Positions 3,246-62,504 of a DNA stretch of 64,000 nt are shown here, in pieces (position 1 is the stretch's first letter; each line of letters opens with the position of its first letter). The notes under the pieces are model-generated. The model saw only the letters and a list, made by a program, of their open reading frames with translations. It made no database searches and was not told the DNA's origin. The stretch lies in IMG/VR virus record IMGVR_UViG_3300028388_004019, positions 119,756 through 183,755 of that record, one strand, 5' to 3'. A program made the position numbers and the translations under genes. Origin of the DNA: a virus.

Positions 3246-6200
3246 TATTGAAATTTAACTTTGTTATTCCATTTATTTGCCTCTCCTTCATTATTACCAG
3301 TATATAATTTTTCTATCAACTGTTTGTCGGCGTTGCTTGGTGTTGTGTTATTTTTGAATGTGAATTCTCTAACTTTTCCCTTAGCATAAGGTAAGTCTTT
3401 GAACTCGGAAGTAGAGTTTACTTCATCTTCATACCCATCGAAAAGATTTTTTATCTGTGTCTGTGCGTCTTGGAAGTCAGATTTCCATTGACCTATTGTG
3501 AATTTTATAGCCTGAATCCACTTATCGGGTTTTGTGAAATTATTTTCATTAATGAACTTAGTCAGTTCCTCTATGAGTGATATATCGTTATCAAGGATAT
3601 ATTTAAAGAATGTCAAATAAAATCTTTTACCAAAGGCATCTTTAACATCCGAAATCATGACTGTCATACTTAAATCTTTTTGATAAACAGTATTACTATT
3701 TTCAGGTGCAATTATAGCGAAGTTATTACCATTAACTTCATATACATTCGTTTTGGTTAGAGAATCTAATTGATTAAGTTTTGAACTAATTATACCAAAG
3801 TCACCTTCCAACTCGTCAAATGTATCTGTATAATCATTACTATACACTTCCGTAGTTGCAGTCAAATCATAAATGACCGTTTGGTCACTCTGAATAAAAC
3901 CATCAATCTTCTCATATACTACATTCAATTTATCCATGACACGAGTCATATCAGTCTCTTTAGTGGTCAACTCTTGTAATTTAGTTGTCATCTCAGACAC
4001 ATAACCATTTTGGACTCGAGTGATAATTTCTTTTATCTTTTTATCGTATTTATTTACATCTTTATTTTTAAAACCTCTACTATCTCTAAATGTAATTCCT
4101 CCCGAAGCATATTGTAATGGGTGTTCGTCATTGTCAACATCTTTTAGTGATTCTTTAAATTGGTAATCCATCTCTTGGGTCAAGTTTTGACTTTTACCAA
4201 ATATCCTTGTTGATGTTCCCATTACCTCACCATTAAAATATCTTCTATCTTTAGTGAATAGTCTCAAACCTATCTCACCATAATTTTCGGCAATACTTTG
4301 TAAAGTAGGAGATACACTGTCTCTGTAGGTTTCATATTTATCAGATAAGTCATCCATAATACCTTTATAAGAAATTGTACCAGTAACAGAGGTACCTGAA
4401 TTTTCTGTTAGTATTGATGTGACTTCACCGATAGTTGACCCACCGTCCTTTACATCTTCACCACTAATATCATCTATACTGAAAGCAACATCACCACCCA
4501 AAGCTTCAATAATTTCTCTGTCAATTTCTGATTGGTCTTCTGTTGCCACAGACCTTTCATCATACATTTCAGTATTAGCGTAGTAGTTGAAGGAAAGTGC
4601 ATTCTGTAATTGAGCAACAGGCTCCTTCAGACCATGACCTCCGATAAAATAGAATGATAAACTTACATCAGCAATCATCGGTTGAACCCCAATACCCTCA
4701 GGATTCAAATCCAAAACTAAAGGTTCGTACCTTAGACTCATCTGATTAATAGCAATTTTAGTATGCCAGAAATCCCCAACTCTTAAAACACATATCGGTG
4801 GTGAACCAAATGCAGTATTCAAGGCATTATTCTCGAGTGGATTACCATCAGGACCTATGGTAGGAATTGTTTCACCAGGTCTCATACATTGTTGTAAGAA
4901 AGTTAATCGTGAATTCAAACCTTCGGGGGTCATTGAATGGAATACAGGATTAAAGTATTTAATTTTTTCTTTTATTCCTTCATATAGGAATGAAGTATCA
5001 TCAGATATACTTTCGAAGTAATCACACTCAGACAGTAATTTTCTAAGTATCTTCTTAGTGATACCTTCTCTCAATTGTAATTCTTGTGTCTGTCGTGGGG
5101 CACCAGTACCTTTTTCTATGACTTTTACTTTTTCAGAAGTTTCAGAAACTTCCTTTACAACTTCCTCGTCTGTTTGGTCTTTAGGTTTTGGTGTTTCTAT
5201 AAGTGTAATATTTTTCACAACACTTCTACGACATCCCATCGCTTGTACGGAATAAATCTTAGAGTCCCCACTCAGAGGAGATGAACAATCAACACCATCA
5301 ATGGTAGTTGTTTCTCCCACGGCAGATTCACTAAAACCAATGAATTTTTTACCTTCTAATTTTTCAATTCGAGAATCCCCAAATATTTGTTTTCTTACTG
5401 AATCATTTCTCCTTTTAGATAAGTTTATATTATAAGTGTTATCATTTGGAGATGATGCTGAACCCGCTAATTCAATATTTACTCTATATCCATTCGTTAT
5501 TGCTTCAACTAATTTGTTTATAAAAGTATCTAAAGAATTTTTACCCTTTTCTATCTGTTGAGTAAAAAATGTTTCCACTTGTTCTTTTTGTCCTATTCCT
5601 TCAGCCTTTTTTAGGTAAGTACTTTTTTGTGAAATATAAGAGTTATATGATGTATTGTAGTTTATAGTCGAAGTTGTTGTTCTTGTATTTGAGTTTGGTT
5701 TATCATTATCAAAATATAATGAAAGATTCTCAAACTGAGTAAATTGTGGTTTTTGTGGAGTATCCACTGGAACATTATCAGGTTCAGGATTTTCTTTTGG
5801 AATTTCTCTTTCGTATTCTCTAAATGTTTCAGGATTATTAGTTTTAGTAACAACTTCGTAAATATCATTGAAACTCAACTGACCATACTTTTTAGCTAAC
5901 TCATAAATGTCCAATGTCTTACATCCCGCAAAGAAACTATCAACAATTTTTGTAACTTCCGAGTCAGGGGTAATATTAGCCAATTCTTTCTTAACCAATG
6001 TATTCAATACCGAAGGGTGGTCAACTAACATTTTGAATGATAATGAACCCTGTCTTTGACTATTCGAATAGGTGTATATTGGTTCAGGTCTCCCTAAAAA
6101 ATCATTGGTGGTCCAATTTGCAGTGACACTTTCATCAACTCTAATATCATATGGTGGGAACCACATCACTCTACCACCCGAAGGACCCTTTTCACAATTT

Positions 6201-11282: not shown

Positions 11283-12134
11283 TTATACTTCTTTTTTCTC
11301 TCCTCCTTTAGTTAAATAAGTTTTTACTGGTTTATCATCCTTATATTCTTTATCTAAAAAATTCTTAATGCTTTCAATATTACCTGGGTCATCATCAGAA
11401 AAACCAATCATAGGAACGAAATTGTTTTTAATGTCGTTCTTAAAGAATGCTCTTTGATTTAATTTACCAGCCATATCCTTCACATAAGAGATAAAGTTTT
11501 TAAGGGCTTTAATTTTTCCTTCTTCAGGGTTCGCAGCACTACCTTCACCATAAGTTACAGGGTGGAACTTTAATAAGTCCAAATACGATTCAACAATATC
11601 ATCATCAGTCATTTCGTCCTCACCAGAAATGTCTCTAAACTTCTTGAGGTTTGAGATTAACTCATCTTTACTTATACCCTTGTGATTGGTCATAATCATA
11701 TTGTACACCGCATCTTTTAATACTGAAGGTGTATGTCCACGAGCAGTAATAATTGAGAATATTGAACCTCCATTGATTGCTTCAACAAAATCATCCCATG
11801 AAGGACCCGTCTCAGCAACCATTGCATCAACAATAAATTGTGAGTCACCTTCAGTTGTGAAGTTTCTATAAGGGTTTTCAGCATAACCAACAATAGTTTC
11901 ACCTTTATAATCAAAAGGTTCTTTACCTAACACCCCACGATATTCTGCAAAGTCCTCAGTAGACATACCTACTTCTTTACCGTCCTCTGTTTTAACGATA
12001 ATTTGAGTTGGCATCATCATAATGTTGTCATCCCAATCAAAAGCATAATACTTCATATTAGGATTACCAGCTTCATCAAAACCTTCTTTGAGTTCTTTTT
12101 CCTCGATATATTCTCTTAATATTGTACGAATCAT
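11283..12134 (-). CDS. HAD-superfamily phosphatase with an N-terminal tag-like helix
   Basis: A 283-residue protein. After an N-terminal helix MIRTILREYIEE, HAD motif I is plain: YYAFDWDDNIMMMP (nucleophile Asp and the +2 Asp, about residues 33-35). Motif II is FSIITARGHTP, and a motif IV-like acidic cluster appears as IGFSDDDPGN near the end. It should therefore be an Mg-dependent phosphohydrolase; the substrate is unknown. The N-terminal helix ends in I-E-E, like the other tag-like starts here, so it might travel in the capsid. Its start overlaps the stop of a 47-residue gene (TAATG), so the two are coupled. Confidence 0.7.
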   Translation of the reverse strand: MIRTILREYIEEKELKEGFDEAGNPNMKYYAFDWDDNIMMMPTQIIVKTEDGKEVGMSTEDFAEYRGVLGKEPFDYKGETIVGYAENPYRNFTTEGDSQFIVDAMVAETGPSWDDFVEAINGGSIFSIITARGHTPSVLKDAVYNMIMTNHKGISKDELISNLKKFRDISGEDEMTDDDIVESYLDLLKFHPVTYGEGSAANPEEGKIKALKNFISYVKDMAGKLNQRAFFKNDIKNNFVPMIGFSDDDPGNIESIKNFLDKEYKDDKPVKTYLTKGGEKKEV

Positions 12135-17411: not shown

Positions 17412-19169
17412 ATGGAAGAAAATAAAGTAGTATCAAAAATACCTGAAGTAAGGGCAACTCGTATCTTAGAAGACTACGAAGGGTTCAACAATTACATATT
17501 GGGCCTGAAGAAAAAAATGCAAGTCAAAAAGCATTTTAAGATGACTCGTGCTCAGGCCGACTACATCATTGACTTCCACGACATCACCCCAAAGGTTGCA
17601 AGAAAGTGGGTGGAGTTGGACGAATACTTTGGTAAAAAGATGATGGAAGAAAAACTTCTTACCAAAAGACCAACGCAAATATACGTAGAAAAAATCTTAG
17701 TAGAAAAAGATAAATCATTTCATATCTACGGAAAATTATTCGAAACTGAAGAACTATATGACTTTTGGTTACCCAAAGCCGCAGTTATTCAAAACAAAGA
17801 AAGACAAGTTGAAGTGGATTATTCAAAATACAGTCATAGACCACCACTCGAACATCAGAAACTCGCAATTGAAAAGTTAGTAGGTAACGACAAATATATC
17901 CTTGCTGATGATATGGGATTGGGTAAGACCACATCTACAGTAATTGCAGCTTTAGAAGCAGAAGCTAAAAAGATATTGATTATATGTCCTGCGTCTTTGA
18001 AGATTAACTGGCAACGTGAGATTGCGAATTACACCGATAGAGAGGTTTCCATCATTGAAGGAAAGAAGTGGGAACCTACAGACTTCACCATCATCAACTT
18101 TGATATCTTAAAGAACTTTCATGACCTAAAGAAAGTAAAAGAATCTTTGGTATTGAAGGAAGATTTTGATTTGGTAATTATTGATGAGGCACATTATATT
18201 CAAAACAAACAAGCTCAGAGAACAAAGATAGCTAATGACATCTGTAAGAAGGTTGGAAAGGTTTGGTTATTAACAGGTACTCCAATGACCTCACGACCAA
18301 TCAACTACTTCAATCTATTAGATTTGGTGGATTCACCGATAGCTTACAATTGGATGGCATACGCAATCCGTTATTGTGAAGGTTACCAATTCAATGTAGG
18401 TAACAGAAAGGTATGGAATGTTAATGGAGCATCCAACCTAATAGAATTAAGAGACAGAACAAAAACACACGTCCTAAGAAGGTTAAAAGAGGACATCTTA
18501 GATTTACCTGAAAAGATTCTTACACCAGTTTATCTAAGGCTAAAGTCAAAACAATACGAAGCACTTATGGGTGAATACTTTGATTGGTATGACAACCACA
18601 CCGAGGAGTCGTCCTCATTAACCGTGCAATTCTCAAAACTGATGAAAGTAAGACAAGTCATCGCTGAAGAGAAGGTGAGAGACACCATTGAGATTGCACA
18701 AAATATTATTGAACAGGGAAAGAAAGTTATTATCTTCACCAACTTTACCGATACATTAAACCAAATTAAATCACATTTTGGAAAGTCTGCAGTTGCGTTA
18801 GACGGAAGAATGAGTAAACCCGCAAGACAAAACTCGGTGGATGAATTCCAAAATAATGAAAAGGTAATGGTATTTGTTGGTAACCTCAAAGCCGCAGGTG
18901 TGGGTATCACACTGACCGCAGCTGAAGCCGTTATTATGAATGACCTCTCGTTCGTTCCTTCTGACCACTCACAAGCAGAAGACCGAGCATATAGATACGG
19001 ACAAAAATCAAACGTATCCGTATTTTATCCAATTTTTGAGAATACAATTGAAGGTGTTATTTATGACATCTTATCCAATAAGAAAAATGTATTTGAAACA
19101 GTTATGGGTGATAACGTAGACAGAGGGACGGTTGTAGAAGAAATCTTAAATACAATTTCAAGAAGATAA
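17412..19169 (+). CDS. SNF2-family helicase (SMARCAL1/UvsW-like role)
   Basis: A 585-residue protein with the full SNF2 helicase set. Walker A is DDMGLGKTTS (about 168-177), then ICPASLKINW (motif Ia region), motif II IIDEAHYIQN, motif III LLTGTPM, and in the second lobe VIIFTNF, GVGITLTAAE and motif VI SQAEDRAYRYGQ. The N-terminal 150 residues form a separate domain. Proteins of this type are ATP-driven DNA translocases that remodel forks; T4 UvsW plays an analogous role in recombination-dependent replication. There is no TATTTATA element before it, in line with early or middle expression. It is divergent from the tail operon. Confidence 0.85.
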   Translation: MEENKVVSKIPEVRATRILEDYEGFNNYILGLKKKMQVKKHFKMTRAQADYIIDFHDITPKVARKWVELDEYFGKKMMEEKLLTKRPTQIYVEKILVEKDKSFHIYGKLFETEELYDFWLPKAAVIQNKERQVEVDYSKYSHRPPLEHQKLAIEKLVGNDKYILADDMGLGKTTSTVIAALEAEAKKILIICPASLKINWQREIANYTDREVSIIEGKKWEPTDFTIINFDILKNFHDLKKVKESLVLKEDFDLVIIDEAHYIQNKQAQRTKIANDICKKVGKVWLLTGTPMTSRPINYFNLLDLVDSPIAYNWMAYAIRYCEGYQFNVGNRKVWNVNGASNLIELRDRTKTHVLRRLKEDILDLPEKILTPVYLRLKSKQYEALMGEYFDWYDNHTEESSSLTVQFSKLMKVRQVIAEEKVRDTIEIAQNIIEQGKKVIIFTNFTDTLNQIKSHFGKSAVALDGRMSKPARQNSVDEFQNNEKVMVFVGNLKAAGVGITLTAAEAVIMNDLSFVPSDHSQAEDRAYRYGQKSNVSVFYPIFENTIEGVIYDILSNKKNVFETVMGDNVDRGTVVEEILNTISRR

Positions 19170-19190: not shown

Positions 19191-19198
19191 TATTTATA
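19191..19198 (+). promoter_or_regulatory. Putative late promoter element (TATTTATA)
   Basis: TATTTATAAG, 15 bases before the start of the superoxide dismutase fusion gene. Confidence 0.5.
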
Positions 19199-19213: not shown

Positions 19214-20755
19214 ATGGAATTCAAAAAAAGCCAAGAAAGAATCCATGAGATAGAACAACAAATCTCGGGTTCAGAAAAAAAAGAAATAATTCAAGAACAA
19301 CAAAAGAAAATGAAAAGAATAACGGCAATTAAGTTACCGTATTCTTATTCTTCATTAGGCCAATTCATTGACAAAGAGACAATGAATGTTCACTACAATC
19401 AACACTACAAAGGGTATATTAAGAAACTCAACAACGCTCTCAAGTCAGTTAAGGACAAAGACTTAGATTTAGAACTTCTTATCAAAGGTATATCTCGTTA
19501 TAACAGGACTATCAGAAATAATGCTGGTGGTGCCTACAATCACGAACTATTTTGGCAAATGTTATCACCAAAAAAACAAGAACCAACAGGTCCTGTTTTA
19601 GATAAGATTAAGAAGAAGTTTAAGACTTACGCTAACTTCAAAAAAGAATTTAAGAATAAAGCAAAACAACAATTCGGCTCAGGATGGGTATGGTTGGTAT
19701 TAACAAAAGGTGGTGATGTAAAAGTGATGACCACCTCAAATCAAGATAACCCAATGATGAACACAATGAAAAACGGTGGTATTCCATTGTTAGGGTTGGA
19801 TTTGTGGGAACACGCATATTACTTAAAATACAAAAATAGAAGAGACCAATACGTAGACAACTTCTTTGAGGTAATCAACTGGTCATTCGTCAACAAACAA
19901 TTTGACGAATTCCAAAAGGGTAAATTGAACGAATCAAGAGTGGTTAAGTCTTTGATTACTGAGGGTACTTCAAGAGGATGTTCACCAAAACAGGTAAACT
20001 CTTATAGAATGATTTTCAATAGAAACCCTCAGGTCAAGAAGAAGTTTATGTACGCCATCATGGATATATTGAAAGAAGTTTATTCTGAATTCCACTACGG
20101 TAAAAATGAATATGCACCAGGTCAGATGTCAGGTATCTATGACTTTGAACAACCAGGTCGTTCAGTAATCAACAAACTTAATACCAACTACTCAGCATTC
20201 TGTATTTTAGTTAATGACTTGAATGCAGTATTGAAACACTATGGTCAGGACCCTCTAAACCTTATAGGTTCCGACAACAAAAAACAATTACAAGAGGTCC
20301 AAAGAATGATTAACCTAATGATTCAATTTAGACATCGTATATTCAATCAAGAATCGGCAACCTTCCAAACAATTATGGCATCATTAGATAGGTCAAATAA
20401 GTTTGGCGATGAAAGAGAATTGAAGGCAGTTGTTAACATGAAAGATATTTTCAATACTAAGAAGGTATTCAAAGTTGGTGAACTCGGAGGTAAAGACGAC
20501 ATGATTGGTGGTATTGACGCTACAGTTGAAATTGATGGTGAAAACAAAACAATTCAAATTAAACCTTTTAATGGTTATGAAGAAGAAGATGGTAGAATGG
20601 TTGTGTTCGGTACAGGTAACGTAAAACCTTACAAAACAGACTACATAGCTTTCCATAACGACTCCAAAGGTACAATTGTATTTGCTAACGATAATACTGA
20701 AATCAAAAACGGTAGATTTACATTCCCTGTGGATAGTTGGGTGAATCCTAAATAA
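19214..20755 (+). CDS. Fe/Mn superoxide dismutase fused to a nuclease-like domain
   Basis: A 513-residue protein. Residues 1-38 are a charged helix. Residues 39-235 are a complete Fe/Mn superoxide dismutase domain: LPYSYSSLGQFIDKETMNVH, then RNNAGGAYNHELFW, FGSGWVWLVL and LDLWEHAYYLKYKNRR. All four metal ligands are present (His60, His110, Asp196, His200); the usual GGH is GGA. A helix NESRVVKSLITE/G (239-251) follows, resembling a prohead protease site. Residues 252-513 form a second domain; GDERELKAV, GGIDATVEIDG and IQIKP give an E402, D435, Q448-x-K450 arrangement typical of PD-(D/E)XK nucleases. A late-type promoter element precedes it. Iron versus manganese specificity cannot be read by eye. 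Confidence 0.85.
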   Translation: MEFKKSQERIHEIEQQISGSEKKEIIQEQQKKMKRITAIKLPYSYSSLGQFIDKETMNVHYNQHYKGYIKKLNNALKSVKDKDLDLELLIKGISRYNRTIRNNAGGAYNHELFWQMLSPKKQEPTGPVLDKIKKKFKTYANFKKEFKNKAKQQFGSGWVWLVLTKGGDVKVMTTSNQDNPMMNTMKNGGIPLLGLDLWEHAYYLKYKNRRDQYVDNFFEVINWSFVNKQFDEFQKGKLNESRVVKSLITEGTSRGCSPKQVNSYRMIFNRNPQVKKKFMYAIMDILKEVYSEFHYGKNEYAPGQMSGIYDFEQPGRSVINKLNTNYSAFCILVNDLNAVLKHYGQDPLNLIGSDNKKQLQEVQRMINLMIQFRHRIFNQESATFQTIMASLDRSNKFGDERELKAVVNMKDIFNTKKVFKVGELGGKDDMIGGIDATVEIDGENKTIQIKPFNGYEEEDGRMVVFGTGNVKPYKTDYIAFHNDSKGTIVFANDNTEIKNGRFTFPVDSWVNPK

Positions 20756-20792: not shown

Positions 20793-21905
20793 ATGTCGAT
20801 TATTATAGAACCACAAAGAACAAAACTTTACACAAGAATTCGTCACCTACTCGGTGCACCTCTAAGAGGTATCGAGATAGAAGATGAAATGATGGATTCT
20901 TTATTGGAATTATCTGTTGAAGATTATTCTCAATACGTAAATGATTGGTTAATTGAATCACAATGGACATCTTTATATGGTCTTAATCAGGATACTCAAT
21001 CTGTTGCTAAAGCACTTATCACACGTTCTTTAGATTGGGAAACTCAATACACTTACGCATATTCTAAGATTGTTGGTTTACAAGCTGGTGGTGATGCTGT
21101 TCTTAAAAAGGACTACATCAACCTACAAAGAAACCAACAAATATATGAAATACCTGCGGGTCGTGAACTTAATGAATTATTATGGTTCACAAGAGCAGAG
21201 TTAGACGCTGCATTCTTCGACCCATTCATGGGTGGTTTTGGAGGATTTGGTGGTATCGGTCTTGGTGGTGGTGCTGGCTTCTCACAAATGGGAGGTCAAG
21301 GAAACTACTTTGTTACACCAGCGTTTGACATCTTATTAAGGATGCAAGACATCAATATTAAAAGAAGACTTATCGGTGGTGAACTTACTTATAGAGTAAC
21401 TGCACTTCCTGAAGGTAAAAAGGCAATACACCTTTATAACGTACCTGGTGGTAAGTTTGATTTTGGTAATATCGCAAACAACGAATACAAAGTATGGTAT
21501 TGGTATTATGAAACAGATGACAGAGAATCTTGTTTAGCCGAAAACCCTGATATTGTACGTTTACCGTCAGATGTTAATTTAGATAACTTAAGATGGGACG
21601 AACTTAACTCACCAGCACAAACGTGGGTTCGTAGATGGTTCACTGCTTACGTTAAAGAAACGTTAGGTAGAGTAAGAGGTAAATTCAGTGGTAATCTAAA
21701 AACTCCTGATTCTGAACTTCAATTGGAATACGATTCATTATTAAGTGAGTCTAAAGATGAGAAGTCTAAATTAGAGGAGGAACTAAAAATGAGATTAGAA
21801 AGACTCCGTCCTGATAAAATGATGGAAGTTAAGGCTAGTCAAGCTGAAAGCTTGAACAAACAACTACAATACAGAGCACTTCCACGACAAATCTATATAG
21901 TCTAA
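20793..21905 (+). CDS. Neck protein (gp13-like)
   Basis: A 370-residue protein. A helical N terminus (TRIRHLLGAPLRGIEIEDEM) is followed by a Gly/Phe-rich loop (about 146-168: GGFGGFGGIGLGGGAG), a beta section, and a long helix with WVRRWFTAYVKETLGRVRGK; it ends in coiled-coil-like charged sequence. The overall plan resembles T4 gp13-type neck proteins, which complete the filled head before tail joining. A late-type element sits 14 bases upstream. The neighbour at 21907 follows one base after its stop. The family call is by pattern and is moderately secure. Confidence 0.55.
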   Translation: MSIIIEPQRTKLYTRIRHLLGAPLRGIEIEDEMMDSLLELSVEDYSQYVNDWLIESQWTSLYGLNQDTQSVAKALITRSLDWETQYTYAYSKIVGLQAGGDAVLKKDYINLQRNQQIYEIPAGRELNELLWFTRAELDAAFFDPFMGGFGGFGGIGLGGGAGFSQMGGQGNYFVTPAFDILLRMQDINIKRRLIGGELTYRVTALPEGKKAIHLYNVPGGKFDFGNIANNEYKVWYWYYETDDRESCLAENPDIVRLPSDVNLDNLRWDELNSPAQTWVRRWFTAYVKETLGRVRGKFSGNLKTPDSELQLEYDSLLSESKDEKSKLEEELKMRLERLRPDKMMEVKASQAESLNKQLQYRALPRQIYIV

Positions 21906-35295: not shown

Positions 35296-35592
35296 ATGGC
35301 TGAACAAAATGACAAGTTAGATTTCTCACAACCAAAAAACTCTTTGAGTGAGATTGCTGATAGAGAAAGAGGAAGACTTTTTCCTCGTAACGACTATTCA
35401 CCTGTTTCTGATAAGTATTCTGCGGAACATCCTAATGCAATGGCTGACGGTGACGATGAAGGTAGAGGAACAGGTTCATTCTTGGATGTACATAATTTCG
35501 GTGCCGGAACTACTACTGACATCAATGAAAGAAACGATGACATCAAAATCAATAAATACAACTATAAGAACGGTTATAAAGTAGAAGAATAA
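35296..35592 (+). CDS. Unknown small acidic protein
   Basis: A 98-residue, probably disordered protein rich in Asp, Asn and Gly (RERGRLFPRNDYSPVSDKY; EGRGTGSFLDVHNFGAG). It starts one base after the preceding stop and its own stop overlaps the next start. No family is recognised; it is probably a minor virion or assembly protein by context. Confidence 0.45.
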   Translation: MAEQNDKLDFSQPKNSLSEIADRERGRLFPRNDYSPVSDKYSAEHPNAMADGDDEGRGTGSFLDVHNFGAGTTTDINERNDDIKINKYNYKNGYKVEE

Positions 35593-35987
35593 TGAGACTA
35601 CAAGAAACCCTTAGAAGTGTTCTTTTAGAAGTGGCATCGATGGATGACATTCAAAGAGCAATTAAACAAAAACAGGTTGCCACCATTTTCTACGATGGTG
35701 ACGAACCTGGTGGTCGTGGTCTCAGGACCGTAGAACCAGTATGTTTGGGTTTCTCAAAAGCAGGTAACAGAGTAGTCAGAGTATGGGACATGGAAGGTGC
35801 TTCCCACACCGCCAGAACAGGTGAACAACCTCTACCAGGATGGAGATTGATGAGGTTAGATAAGATTATGACATTCAAACCTACAGGTGAAAACTTTACA
35901 ACTCCACGACCAGGCTATAACTTTAATGGTGATAAGAGCATGACAAGAGTCATAATCAACGCACAATTTGATAACAACAATGAATAA
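35592..35987 (+). CDS. WYL-like small-domain protein with an N-terminal tag-like helix
   Basis: A 131-residue protein. The N terminus, MRLQETLRSVLLEV, is an amphipathic helix with L-L-E, similar to the prohead-protease-type ends discussed elsewhere. Residues 25-100 (VATIFYDGD; GLRTVEPVCLGFSKAGNRVV; PGWRLMRLDKI) follow the beta pattern of WYL-type ligand- or nucleic-acid-binding domains, without the helix-turn-helix of bacterial WYL regulators. It is translationally coupled to both neighbours. A packaged or virion-associated role is inferred only. Confidence 0.5.
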   Translation: MRLQETLRSVLLEVASMDDIQRAIKQKQVATIFYDGDEPGGRGLRTVEPVCLGFSKAGNRVVRVWDMEGASHTARTGEQPLPGWRLMRLDKIMTFKPTGENFTTPRPGYNFNGDKSMTRVIINAQFDNNNE

Positions 35988-57793: not shown

Positions 57794-59572
57794 TTATCTT
57801 AAAGAGTTCAAATCGAACGTTCTAACACCATCAACAGTGATTACACCATAGAAACGGTTGTTAACCATTTTCTTAGCGTATCTAGTCATGATACCCTTGA
57901 TTGGTGTAAAGTTGAATGGGTTGTACATTGTAGGTGTCAACTGTAATGGTACATATGGTGCGTAAACGTAACCTGTATCCAATAAAGAAGAACCTTTATG
58001 ACCCATCAATACAGTGTTAGGTGGGAAGTAAGGGTCACGGTAAACTTGGTATCTACCTGATAACGTACCTACTCTCTCAATACCCATGTTGTATTGGTCT
58101 TGGTCTGGTGCTGCGTTTGAAACGTGGAAGTACTCCAAGTCATCGAAGATTGCAGAAATTTCAGAAGAAACTACAATCCAGTTAGCACCACCTCTAAGAG
58201 TTGATTTGTGAATTTGAGCTGAGATTTGGTTAATTGCAGTAATCAACGTTTGGTTCCAATCTTTTTGGTTGTAGTTTACTGAACCATTGTTCACTCTCTT
58301 CCAACCGTTGTAGTCCCATCTTAATGACCATGCCGCACCTTTTCTCAAGTCTCTTAAGATTTCACGGTCAATTTCTGCCGCCACTTGCTCAGACAATAAA
58401 GCTGTCAATTCAGCTTCAGCGTCGATGTTGTGGAATGCAGAAACGTCTTGTGCAAGTTCTGGAGACCATTGTGCTCTTAATTTTCTTTCTGTTACAGAAA
58501 CAGTAACTGCTTCAAGGTCGAAAGATACCTCACCGATAGCGTCTTCAAATTCTAATGTTTCGTAGATTCTGTAAGTCGCCTCAAATGCTGGTGCATCTGC
58601 TGTAAGAGCCGCACCGAATGTAGTTCCTGAGTAACCATCTGTTGAAGTTGTTGAACCGATAGCAACAGGTACTGCTGTATCAATTGCTAAATAAATTTTA
58701 CCATCAGCAGAACAGATATCATCGTAAGAACCACCAGGACCTGTACTTGGGAAAGATGTTGATTTTTCACTTCCGTATTGTACCATACCTTTACCGTACT
58801 TCTGAGTAACAACATTAAAGTTGTAGTATGGAGTATCACCAGATGCTCTTACTTCTAATGAAGCTAAGAATTCTTCAGTATCCATTGCGTTACCATCAGG
58901 ACCGATTAATTTACCAGCACCGTCAGAAGAGAAACCTGATAATACAGCGATAACTTGTCTTTGCTCACCTGAGTAGTATGTGTCAGCAGCAGTGTTAGCA
59001 GCTTCTATTAAGTCTGAACCATCCCATCTGTAGTTAACCAATGCTTTAGTTACTTCAGAATAACGACCTTTTGAATAATCGAAAAGACCTGCTGGGTCAG
59101 AGTTTGGTGTTTCACCTTCGTAGAAACGGTCGTACAAGTTTTTGTCAGTTGACGAGTAACCTGTAGTGCTTGAAGAAGGACCTCCTGGTGCACCGAATGG
59201 TTTATAGTGCTCACCATCGTTACCGTTAGCGTTAGCACTTTGGATTTTAGGTACAAAGTAGAACAATTTACCGATTGGTAAGTTCATAGCTTGTACAGAT
59301 ACGATATCGTTAGCCAATAATTTAGAGAATACTCTTCTAACGATAGGGAAGACTACAGTTTCGAATGAACCTGAGTCAGAAGCGTTTGCTGCTTCGTTGA
59401 TTAAGTGAGACGCTTGGTTTTCGTATAATTGTGCCACGTTTTCTTTTAAGTGACCTTTCAATCCATCCAAGAAACCTAATTTGTCCCATTTGTTGATTGT
59501 GTCTTCTTTGATAACTTTCAAGTGCTTAAGACCGATGTTACCAACAAGACCTGATTCTAATAATGCTCCCAT
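57794..59572 (-). CDS. Major capsid protein (gp23-like)
   Basis: A 592-residue protein. Residues 55-60, SHLINE, followed by AANASD, look like the T4 maturation site, where the prohead protease cuts after (I/L)-x-E; mature length would be about 532. Right after it, VVFPIVRRVFSKLLANDIVS and VQAMNLPIGKLFYFVPK align with the gp23 start of the HK97-fold domain (T4 MGMVRRAIPN, VQPMNSPTG). The end has MYNPFNFTPIKGIMTRYAKK and GVITVDGVRTFDLN. T4 gp23 has 521 residues. It lies downstream of the scaffold and protease genes; the transcript ends at a strong hairpin. Confidence 0.92.
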   Translation of the reverse strand: MGALLESGLVGNIGLKHLKVIKEDTINKWDKLGFLDGLKGHLKENVAQLYENQASHLINEAANASDSGSFETVVFPIVRRVFSKLLANDIVSVQAMNLPIGKLFYFVPKIQSANANGNDGEHYKPFGAPGGPSSSTTGYSSTDKNLYDRFYEGETPNSDPAGLFDYSKGRYSEVTKALVNYRWDGSDLIEAANTAADTYYSGEQRQVIAVLSGFSSDGAGKLIGPDGNAMDTEEFLASLEVRASGDTPYYNFNVVTQKYGKGMVQYGSEKSTSFPSTGPGGSYDDICSADGKIYLAIDTAVPVAIGSTTSTDGYSGTTFGAALTADAPAFEATYRIYETLEFEDAIGEVSFDLEAVTVSVTERKLRAQWSPELAQDVSAFHNIDAEAELTALLSEQVAAEIDREILRDLRKGAAWSLRWDYNGWKRVNNGSVNYNQKDWNQTLITAINQISAQIHKSTLRGGANWIVVSSEISAIFDDLEYFHVSNAAPDQDQYNMGIERVGTLSGRYQVYRDPYFPPNTVLMGHKGSSLLDTGYVYAPYVPLQLTPTMYNPFNFTPIKGIMTRYAKKMVNNRFYGVITVDGVRTFDLNSLR

Positions 59573-61347: not shown

Positions 61348-62067
61348 TTAATTACCTAAATAATCGGATAATCTTCTCATTAAGTCAATAGACGCACCCA
61401 TTCCACCATCAATTCTTGCTTCAGGTTCAGGTCTTTTTTCTTCTTCTAAGTTTTCTTCGTATTTACCTTTATCGTCCTTATTAAGGAAAAGGTATGCGCC
61501 AGGTGTAGATGGAGACGATACAAGGTCAAAACAGATAAGTTCAAAATCTTCTTGTACTTCGTTTCTTTCACCCTTCTTAGCTAATGAACCTACACCACGT
61601 GAGGATACACCCATGGTAACACCTTGTCTCATTAAGTTCGCCGCTTGGTCACCAGGACAAGAAACAACACCACTATCGTGGAAACCAGGTGAAGTTAATA
61701 ATTTTAACTTACCCATCAATGTATTACCTTCCCACCACATATCAGTGATAAGGTGTGATACACGGTCCAAATCAATCAATGATGATTCAGGGTGGTTCAA
61801 CTCAGAAATGGATAAACCTTTATTGATAGCCCCTTGATATCTTTCGGCTTCTCTTCTTAATATTTTTTCAGGGTAAACACGACCATTTCTATTTGGTGTG
61901 TCGAATTTTTGTAATACGGCATAAAACTCAAATGGTTTCGAGTGGTCCAACTGACCATACGATTCTTTGATAACTTCAGCATTACGGCTATCGTGTGGGT
62001 TTACATATCCAGCATCCCATTCAATCAATATTCCCTTCCCTGTATCTTGTGGTCCTAAAACTCTCAT
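61348..62067 (-). CDS. Prohead protease (gp21-like)
   Basis: A 239-residue protein of the U9/S80 assemblin-like protease type. After NRNGRVYPEKILRREAERYQ, the catalytic His lies in ISELNHPESSLID (about residue 92), the Ser in GVTMGVSSRGVGSL (about residue 154), and an Asp follows in LICFDLVSSPSTPGAYL. It cleaves capsid and core proteins after (I/L)-x-E during head maturation. The position upstream of scaffold and capsid matches T4. TATTTATAAT lies 16 bases before the ATG. Confidence 0.9.
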   Translation of the reverse strand: MRVLGPQDTGKGILIEWDAGYVNPHDSRNAEVIKESYGQLDHSKPFEFYAVLQKFDTPNRNGRVYPEKILRREAERYQGAINKGLSISELNHPESSLIDLDRVSHLITDMWWEGNTLMGKLKLLTSPGFHDSGVVSCPGDQAANLMRQGVTMGVSSRGVGSLAKKGERNEVQEDFELICFDLVSSPSTPGAYLFLNKDDKGKYEENLEEEKRPEPEARIDGGMGASIDLMRRLSDYLGN

Positions 62068-62105: not shown

Positions 62106-62504
62106 TTATTCTATGATGATGTCCCACTCACTTATTTCTATACCAATATACTTTGTATATTTTTTATTCATCACTTCAGCAACTCTGTTATTAATAACAT
62201 GACCTAATGATAAATCTTCTCCTGAATAGATGTCTTTGATTGCCCAAGTCATTGCGAAACTAGTCACATCTTGTTCACCGTAATAGGTATATAGGATTTT
62301 ATCGACACCAACTCTAACAGATACATCACTATCCTCTATGTCTCCTTCTAATATTACGTGACGAAATGTCACAACAGTAAAATCCTCCTCCACTGTAAAA
62401 TCGGATGGGTCAATAATATTGTTAAGGTCATCAATAGCGGTGTTACCCTCACTGATGACCTTTCTCAATTTTTGTAGTTGTGATTCTGTAATTTTGATTT
62501 TCAC
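62106..62504 (-). CDS. Unknown protein with ITESQL tag-like N-terminus
   Basis: A 132-residue protein starting at GTG. The first residues, MKIKITESQLQKLRKVISEG, form an amphipathic helix ending in I-S-E, which fits the (I/L)-x-E site cut by gp21-type proteases. The remainder is a small alpha/beta domain with a DUF-like end (YTKYIGIEISEWDIIIE). If cleaved, the mature protein would begin at Gly20. A late-type variant (TATTTATC) lies 15 bases upstream. It is adjacent to the protease gene. Confidence 0.6.
   Translation of the reverse strand: MKIKITESQLQKLRKVISEGNTAIDDLNNIIDPSDFTVEEDFTVVTFRHVILEGDIEDSDVSVRVGVDKILYTYYGEQDVTSFAMTWAIKDIYSGEDLSLGHVINNRVAEVMNKKYTKYIGIEISEWDIIIE

Follow-up and report, generated by a model that had tools for sequence, protein, structure and literature searches.

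The window analyzed here is a stretch of 64,000 nt of viral DNA, taken whole from positions 119,756 to 183,755 of the IMG/VR record IMGVR_UViG_3300028388_004019. On its plus strand, a single open reading frame joins a superoxide dismutase (SOD) to a second, nuclease-like domain and lies between a helicase gene and a neck gene. A T4-type prohead protease and a gp23-type major head protein are encoded on the minus strand. The features considered below are the following:

17412..19169, plus strand: SNF2/UvsW-type helicase, the upstream syntenic neighbor
19191..19198, plus strand: late-type promoter candidate, TATTTATA on the coding strand, with 15 nt between the element and the ATG
19214..20755, plus strand: SOD-nuclease polyprotein gene (propeptide, SOD, linker, nuclease), 513 aa from ATG to stop
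19214..19297, plus strand: N-terminal propeptide (residues 1–28), a putative capsid-targeting leader that ends I-I-Q-E28 (site 0)
19322..19912, plus strand: Mn/Fe SOD domain (residues 37–233), with ligands H60, H110, D196 and H200 and the Mn-type Q177
19925..19963, plus strand: linker L238-N-E240/S...L-I248-T-E250/G, with two [ILV]-x-E motifs (sites 1 and 2)
19964..20752, plus strand: predicted PD-(D/E)XK-type nuclease domain (residues 251–513; AlphaFold2 pLDDT 77, Foldseek)
20417..20419, plus strand: catalytic-type Glu402, in a helix, invariant in 23/23 representatives
20516..20518, plus strand: catalytic-type Asp435, invariant in 23/23 representatives
20555..20563, plus strand: catalytic-type Gln448-x-Lys450, invariant in 23/23 representatives
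20793..21905, plus strand: neck/head-tail adaptor protein, the downstream syntenic neighbor (phrog_211, synteny)
57794..59572, minus strand: gp23-type major head protein with a LINE/A propeptide site at residue 60 (PF07068 E 4e-73, phrog_138)
61348..62067, minus strand: T4 gp21-type prohead protease (Peptidase_S77; PF03420 E 4e-23), the presumed processing enzyme

The fused gene and its two domains

The original prediction described an SOD followed by a second domain in one reading frame at 19214–20755, and this was confirmed by the 513-aa frame, by Pfam and by the invariant residues. Using a profile of the C-terminal domain, we found 54 IMG/VR loci (57–95% identity), all of them fused to an SOD. 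A more distant search with the same domain returned 206 candidate stretches; among the best 80 loci, which partly overlap the earlier set of 54, most were fused, and relatives of the domain in IMG/VR contigs reach down to ~25% identity. A total of 88 distinct proteins were compared, and conservation was counted across 23 representatives, 18 of them SOD-bearing (<80% identity to one another). Since the fusion is kept in relatives from many IMG/VR contigs, an assembly artefact or a chance read-through was ruled out as its source. The SOD-nuclease gene family is shared by many aquatic phages.

The fusion was not found in any cultured phage of INPHARED. Among named phages, the C-terminal domain was present in only one, an uncultured phage of 735 kb in which it is a stand-alone homologue, and a search of cellular genomes confirmed no relative. 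The UniProt entry A0A6J5L953 (501 aa; "superoxide dismutase [uncultured Caudovirales phage]") shares 37% identity with the C-terminal domain across 257 columns and is evidently a database member of the family; it carries the SOD name only, and we found no description of its nuclease half or cut sites. Likewise, no description of an SOD-nuclease fusion or of its processing was found in open-access PMC papers. Some copies present a disrupted frame. In L113, a frameshift separates the SOD and nuclease halves (around 5782–5791), probably through sequencing error because close relatives are intact. In L072, L073 and L074, contigs from three metagenomes, the propeptide is one base out of frame with the SOD near a CCCCC run (around 5280–5370), and either a frameshift or an error is possible.

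Both halves of the SOD were recognized by Pfam: Sod_Fe_N at residues 39–118 (E 8e-20, 71.5 bits against a cut-off of 27) and Sod_Fe_C at residues 124–228 (E 7.5e-39, 132.3 bits against a cut-off of 20.9). Among solved structures, bacterial MnSODs come closest (phmmer on the PDB, E ~6e-55), and Foldseek also matched the domain to MnSODs (E 4e-17). His60, His110, Asp196 and His200, the four ligands of the complete Fe/Mn SOD proposed at the outset, are invariant together with the Mn-type Gln177 in all 18 SOD-bearing representatives. The conservation of the ligands suggests that selection maintains the enzymatic function of the SOD. By these sequence criteria the domain is a complete Mn/Fe superoxide dismutase, with predicted activity. 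It shares its fold, the four ligands and the Mn-type Gln with bacterial Mn/Fe SODs but differs from them in the phage leader in front and the nuclease domain fused behind. The closest cellular SODs found, from Sphingobacterium and Clostridioides, are 43–48% identical, matches that are pattern-limited and too distant to name a host.

The second domain of about 260 residues was predicted to carry E402, D435 and Q448-x-K450. These residues are as described, and they are invariant across the 23 representatives, both SOD-bearing and SOD-less, and kept in the stand-alone homologue of the 735-kb phage (~22–27% identity). Separate profile searches of the two halves, proposed as a check, succeeded for the SOD half but not for residues 251–513, which have no Pfam match and no PDB sequence match; among PHROGs, the domain yielded a weak match alone, to phrog_5018 (function unknown). 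The AlphaFold2 model of this domain is of moderate confidence (pLDDT 77, pTM 0.62). Its top PDB match by Foldseek is I-Ssp6803I (E 2.5e-3, probability 0.97, with low TM-scores); Hjc resolvases also match it in the PDB, and among viral models it matches PD(D/E)XK proteins and resolvases. The moderate model is thus closest to PD-(D/E)XK enzymes, a group with a core alpha-beta-beta-beta fold, and the C-terminal domain is a probable DNA-cutting enzyme of this family. A helix Glu, an Asp and a Q-x-K on adjacent strands are common to it and to I-Ssp6803I, archaeal Hjc and phage PD(D/E)XK nucleases. Unlike these, it matches no Pfam family and possesses an additional, helical N-terminal part of ~140 residues. 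The nuclease domain is also matched, at 24% identity, by a 1113-aa protein of an uncultured marine phage (BFVD A0A8D9CCA0), where it may be fused to something else.

Candidate cut sites, head genes and the upstream element

The gp21 protease of T4 cuts after L/I-X-E, the pattern seen at sites 1 and 2, and T4 propeptides act as capsid-targeting sequences (PMC9026906). [LI]-x-E is a short motif that is often present in proteins by chance, and our argument therefore rests on its conservation rather than on its presence. Site 2 (I248-T-E250/G251) reads I/L-x-E in all 18 SOD-bearing representatives, with T, S, N, E, F, I, K or M as the middle residue. Site 1 (E240), 10 residues upstream, is likewise found in 18/18, with I, L or V at −2 and D, K, L, N or Q in the middle. 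No Glu of the protein other than E240 and E250 has an [ILV] at −2 in every representative together with a middle residue that varies; a looser test at 80% was passed by two further Glu, the first belonging to the SOD metal site and the second to a helix. Site 0 (I26-Q-E28), where V is allowed at −2 besides L and I, is an [ILV]-x-E located 8–13 residues before the LPYSYS of the SOD start in all 16 representatives with the leader in the reading frame, and in many members MKK or AKK of the SOD start follows it directly.

A single gp21-type site between the domains had been proposed. Its motif at E250 is indeed invariant, but it is not the sole site, since E240 and E28 present the same signature. 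With three conserved sites, the likely products are a propeptide, the SOD, a short linker peptide and the nuclease. The structure model is of low confidence at residues 20–32 and 235–242, which is weak evidence for flexible linkers. Across the aligned relatives, the idea of cleavage appears better supported than the original prediction could tell.

The S77 protease is also encoded by the relatives whose contigs reach that region; its absence from shorter contigs carries no weight. In gp23, LINE/A is found at the expected propeptide position and is conserved in seven relatives; the corresponding site of Flavobacterium phage immuto is IVSE/A, that of Mel-JY01 LISE/A and that of RM378 LMET. The closest gp23 proteins among isolates include those of immuto and RM378. 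The phage is T4-like, probably with a host among Bacteroidota. The order helicase, SOD-nuclease, neck is kept in nearly all representatives.

Several other reading frames present similar leaders. Near the protease, a 132-aa frame (window 62106–62504, minus strand) begins MKIKITESQLQKLRKVISE/G, like the SOD-nuclease linker KLNESRVVKSLITE/G, and is a candidate processed head protein. Two frames of the contig of L175 are comparable: an acidic one of 199 aa (G000:34163–34762, minus strand), whose leader ...KSDLNESRKSLIKAGLINE/QEE shows a two-motif pattern as in the SOD-nuclease linker, and one of 209 aa (G000:37950–38579, plus strand) that starts MKKISLTESQLTDLIQKVVKQKLGQINE/D with a TATTTAT element upstream, possibly a packaged protein. 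Finally, frames at window 11283–12134 (minus strand) and 35592–35987 (plus strand) have short leaders ending ELKE/G and VLLE/V, respectively, and no Pfam match.

The element TATTTATA is located 16–23 nt before the ATG and is present in 17 of the 18 representatives. It precedes 29 of the 142 reading frames of the phage, among them those of the protease, the scaffold, the neck and large, presumably structural proteins. The late-type promoter element of the original prediction is thus real and conserved. On the coding strand, however, its sequence is that of TATAAATA, the late element of T4, in reverse complement. Identity with a T4 late promoter was rejected for this reason, and the label would call for transcript mapping. 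In the window, TATAAATA has 16 sites against 7.35 expected by chance, most of them just upstream of genes but in the antisense orientation. Upstream of 5926 in L142, a locus lacking the SOD, the TATTTAT element is absent and TATATTTG stands in its place. This sequence resembles a −7 element of Bacteroidota promoters.

Relatives that lack one of the two enzymes

Seven loci present a leader, an [IL]-x-E and the nuclease with no SOD (L102, L111, L123, L124, L142, L143 and L168). In five of them (L102, L123, L142, L143 and L168), the SOD-less gene sits between the helicase and the neck genes. Two SOD-less contigs, 308 and 318 kb long, still encode both nuclease and protease, and no SOD was detectable elsewhere in them. 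The leader of L123 still ends SINE/MKKIEIEKL, a match to the beginning of the SOD in the sister group of L123, and KSIISE/G comes directly after it, as if the SOD had been cleanly deleted. The starred branches of the nuclease tree require that the SOD state changed at least three times, twice by loss within the fused family. L100 and L113, the latter being the frameshifted copy, were labelled as SOD-bearing by hand, and the placement of L094 and L096, stand-alone homologues on long branches, is unreliable. The tree indicates that the SOD was lost at least twice at this locus while the leader, the cut site and the nuclease stayed. The converse arrangement was found in L021, a contig of only 51 kb, where an SOD alone with a short leader (...SLLLE/E) adjoins the neck gene; with a contig of this length, a nuclease may be encoded elsewhere.

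A candidate packaged polyprotein

We consider it probable, at roughly 0.6, that this T4-like phage packs the product of the gene into its head as a late cargo polyprotein, and that gp21-type processing frees an SOD and a nuclease there. The N-terminal leader would target the polyprotein to the prohead core, where the gp21-type protease would cut after [I/L/V]-x-E at E28, E240 and E250. Mn-type SOD and PD-(D/E)XK-family nuclease would thereby be released within the capsid and leave it together with the DNA. The SOD may remove superoxide, either in the particle or at an early stage of infection; the nuclease is the more conserved core function and may act on competing or host DNA. The data show the fused gene with its SOD fold, a probable nuclease fold, intact catalytic residues, conserved sites, a protease in the genome and modules gained and lost at one locus, whereas packaging, cutting, ejection, activity and targets are inferred. 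Against the model, a nuclease enclosed together with the genome would have to be held in check.

Such a system would have precedents. T4 ejects internal proteins, the IPs and Alt (PMC9026906), and in PBCV-1 a late viral SOD is packaged in the virion (PMC7019647). With the T4 internal head proteins (IPI, IPII, IPIII and Alt), the locus shares a leader ending [L/I]-x-E, an S77 protease, gp23 and a candidate late-type element. It differs from them in uniting two enzyme domains within a single polyprotein whose internal sites are conserved, and in a cargo of SOD and nuclease where T4 carries anti-restriction proteins or an ADP-ribosyltransferase; no sequence relation between the SOD-nuclease protein and T4 internal proteins was found. 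The likeness to the Cu/Zn SOD of PBCV-1 (A245R), a late viral SOD in the particle, extends to packaging by proposal only, and A245R is an unfused protein of an algal virus with an unrelated SOD fold and no prohead-protease sites described.

The main alternative is a bifunctional cytoplasmic enzyme, or auxiliary metabolic gene, in which the SOD counters oxidative stress in the infected cell, the nuclease is a fused enzyme of DNA metabolism and the linker motifs arose by chance or for structural reasons. Freshwater phage SODs have been read in this way, as host oxidative-stress genes acting inside the cell (PMC6802176), and helicase and DNA polymerase genes lie close by. We nevertheless regard it as unlikely: it leaves unexplained an invariant [ILV]-x-E with a variable middle residue at the domain boundaries, an element TATTTATA common to structural genes, the precise absence of the SOD with leader and cut site kept, and the L-x-E leader retained by the SOD-only form. 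It is rather improbable that the PD-(D/E)XK-like fold is a structural or DNA-binding head component with no active nuclease, which would be compatible with packaging; the modest fold scores and the hazard of an active nuclease in a full head speak for it, but the E, D, Q and K are all invariant down to ~25% identity. Finally, a packaged and processed head protein of which one part only is functional cargo (for example the nuclease, with the SOD as an accessory or a long propeptide) would agree with the repeated loss of the SOD beside a retained nuclease and with the propeptides of 111–254 residues in SPN3US (PMC10052503), but it is very improbable given that none of the 18 SOD-bearing representatives has lost an SOD ligand and that an SOD-only version exists.

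For the furthest-reaching reading, a dual-payload internal protein that is split during capsid maturation into two virion enzymes, both delivered to the host with the DNA and with the SOD as a removable module, the chance falls slightly short of even. If the reading is true, T4-type head targeting and processing would bring a two-enzyme polyprotein, and with it an antioxidant cargo, into a single particle, and some phage SODs now seen as auxiliary metabolic genes would be recast as virion proteins. The leader together with the [I/L/V]-x-E signature could also predict other packaged proteins. The locus would then offer a readily testable system in an abundant and mostly uncultured group of aquatic phages.
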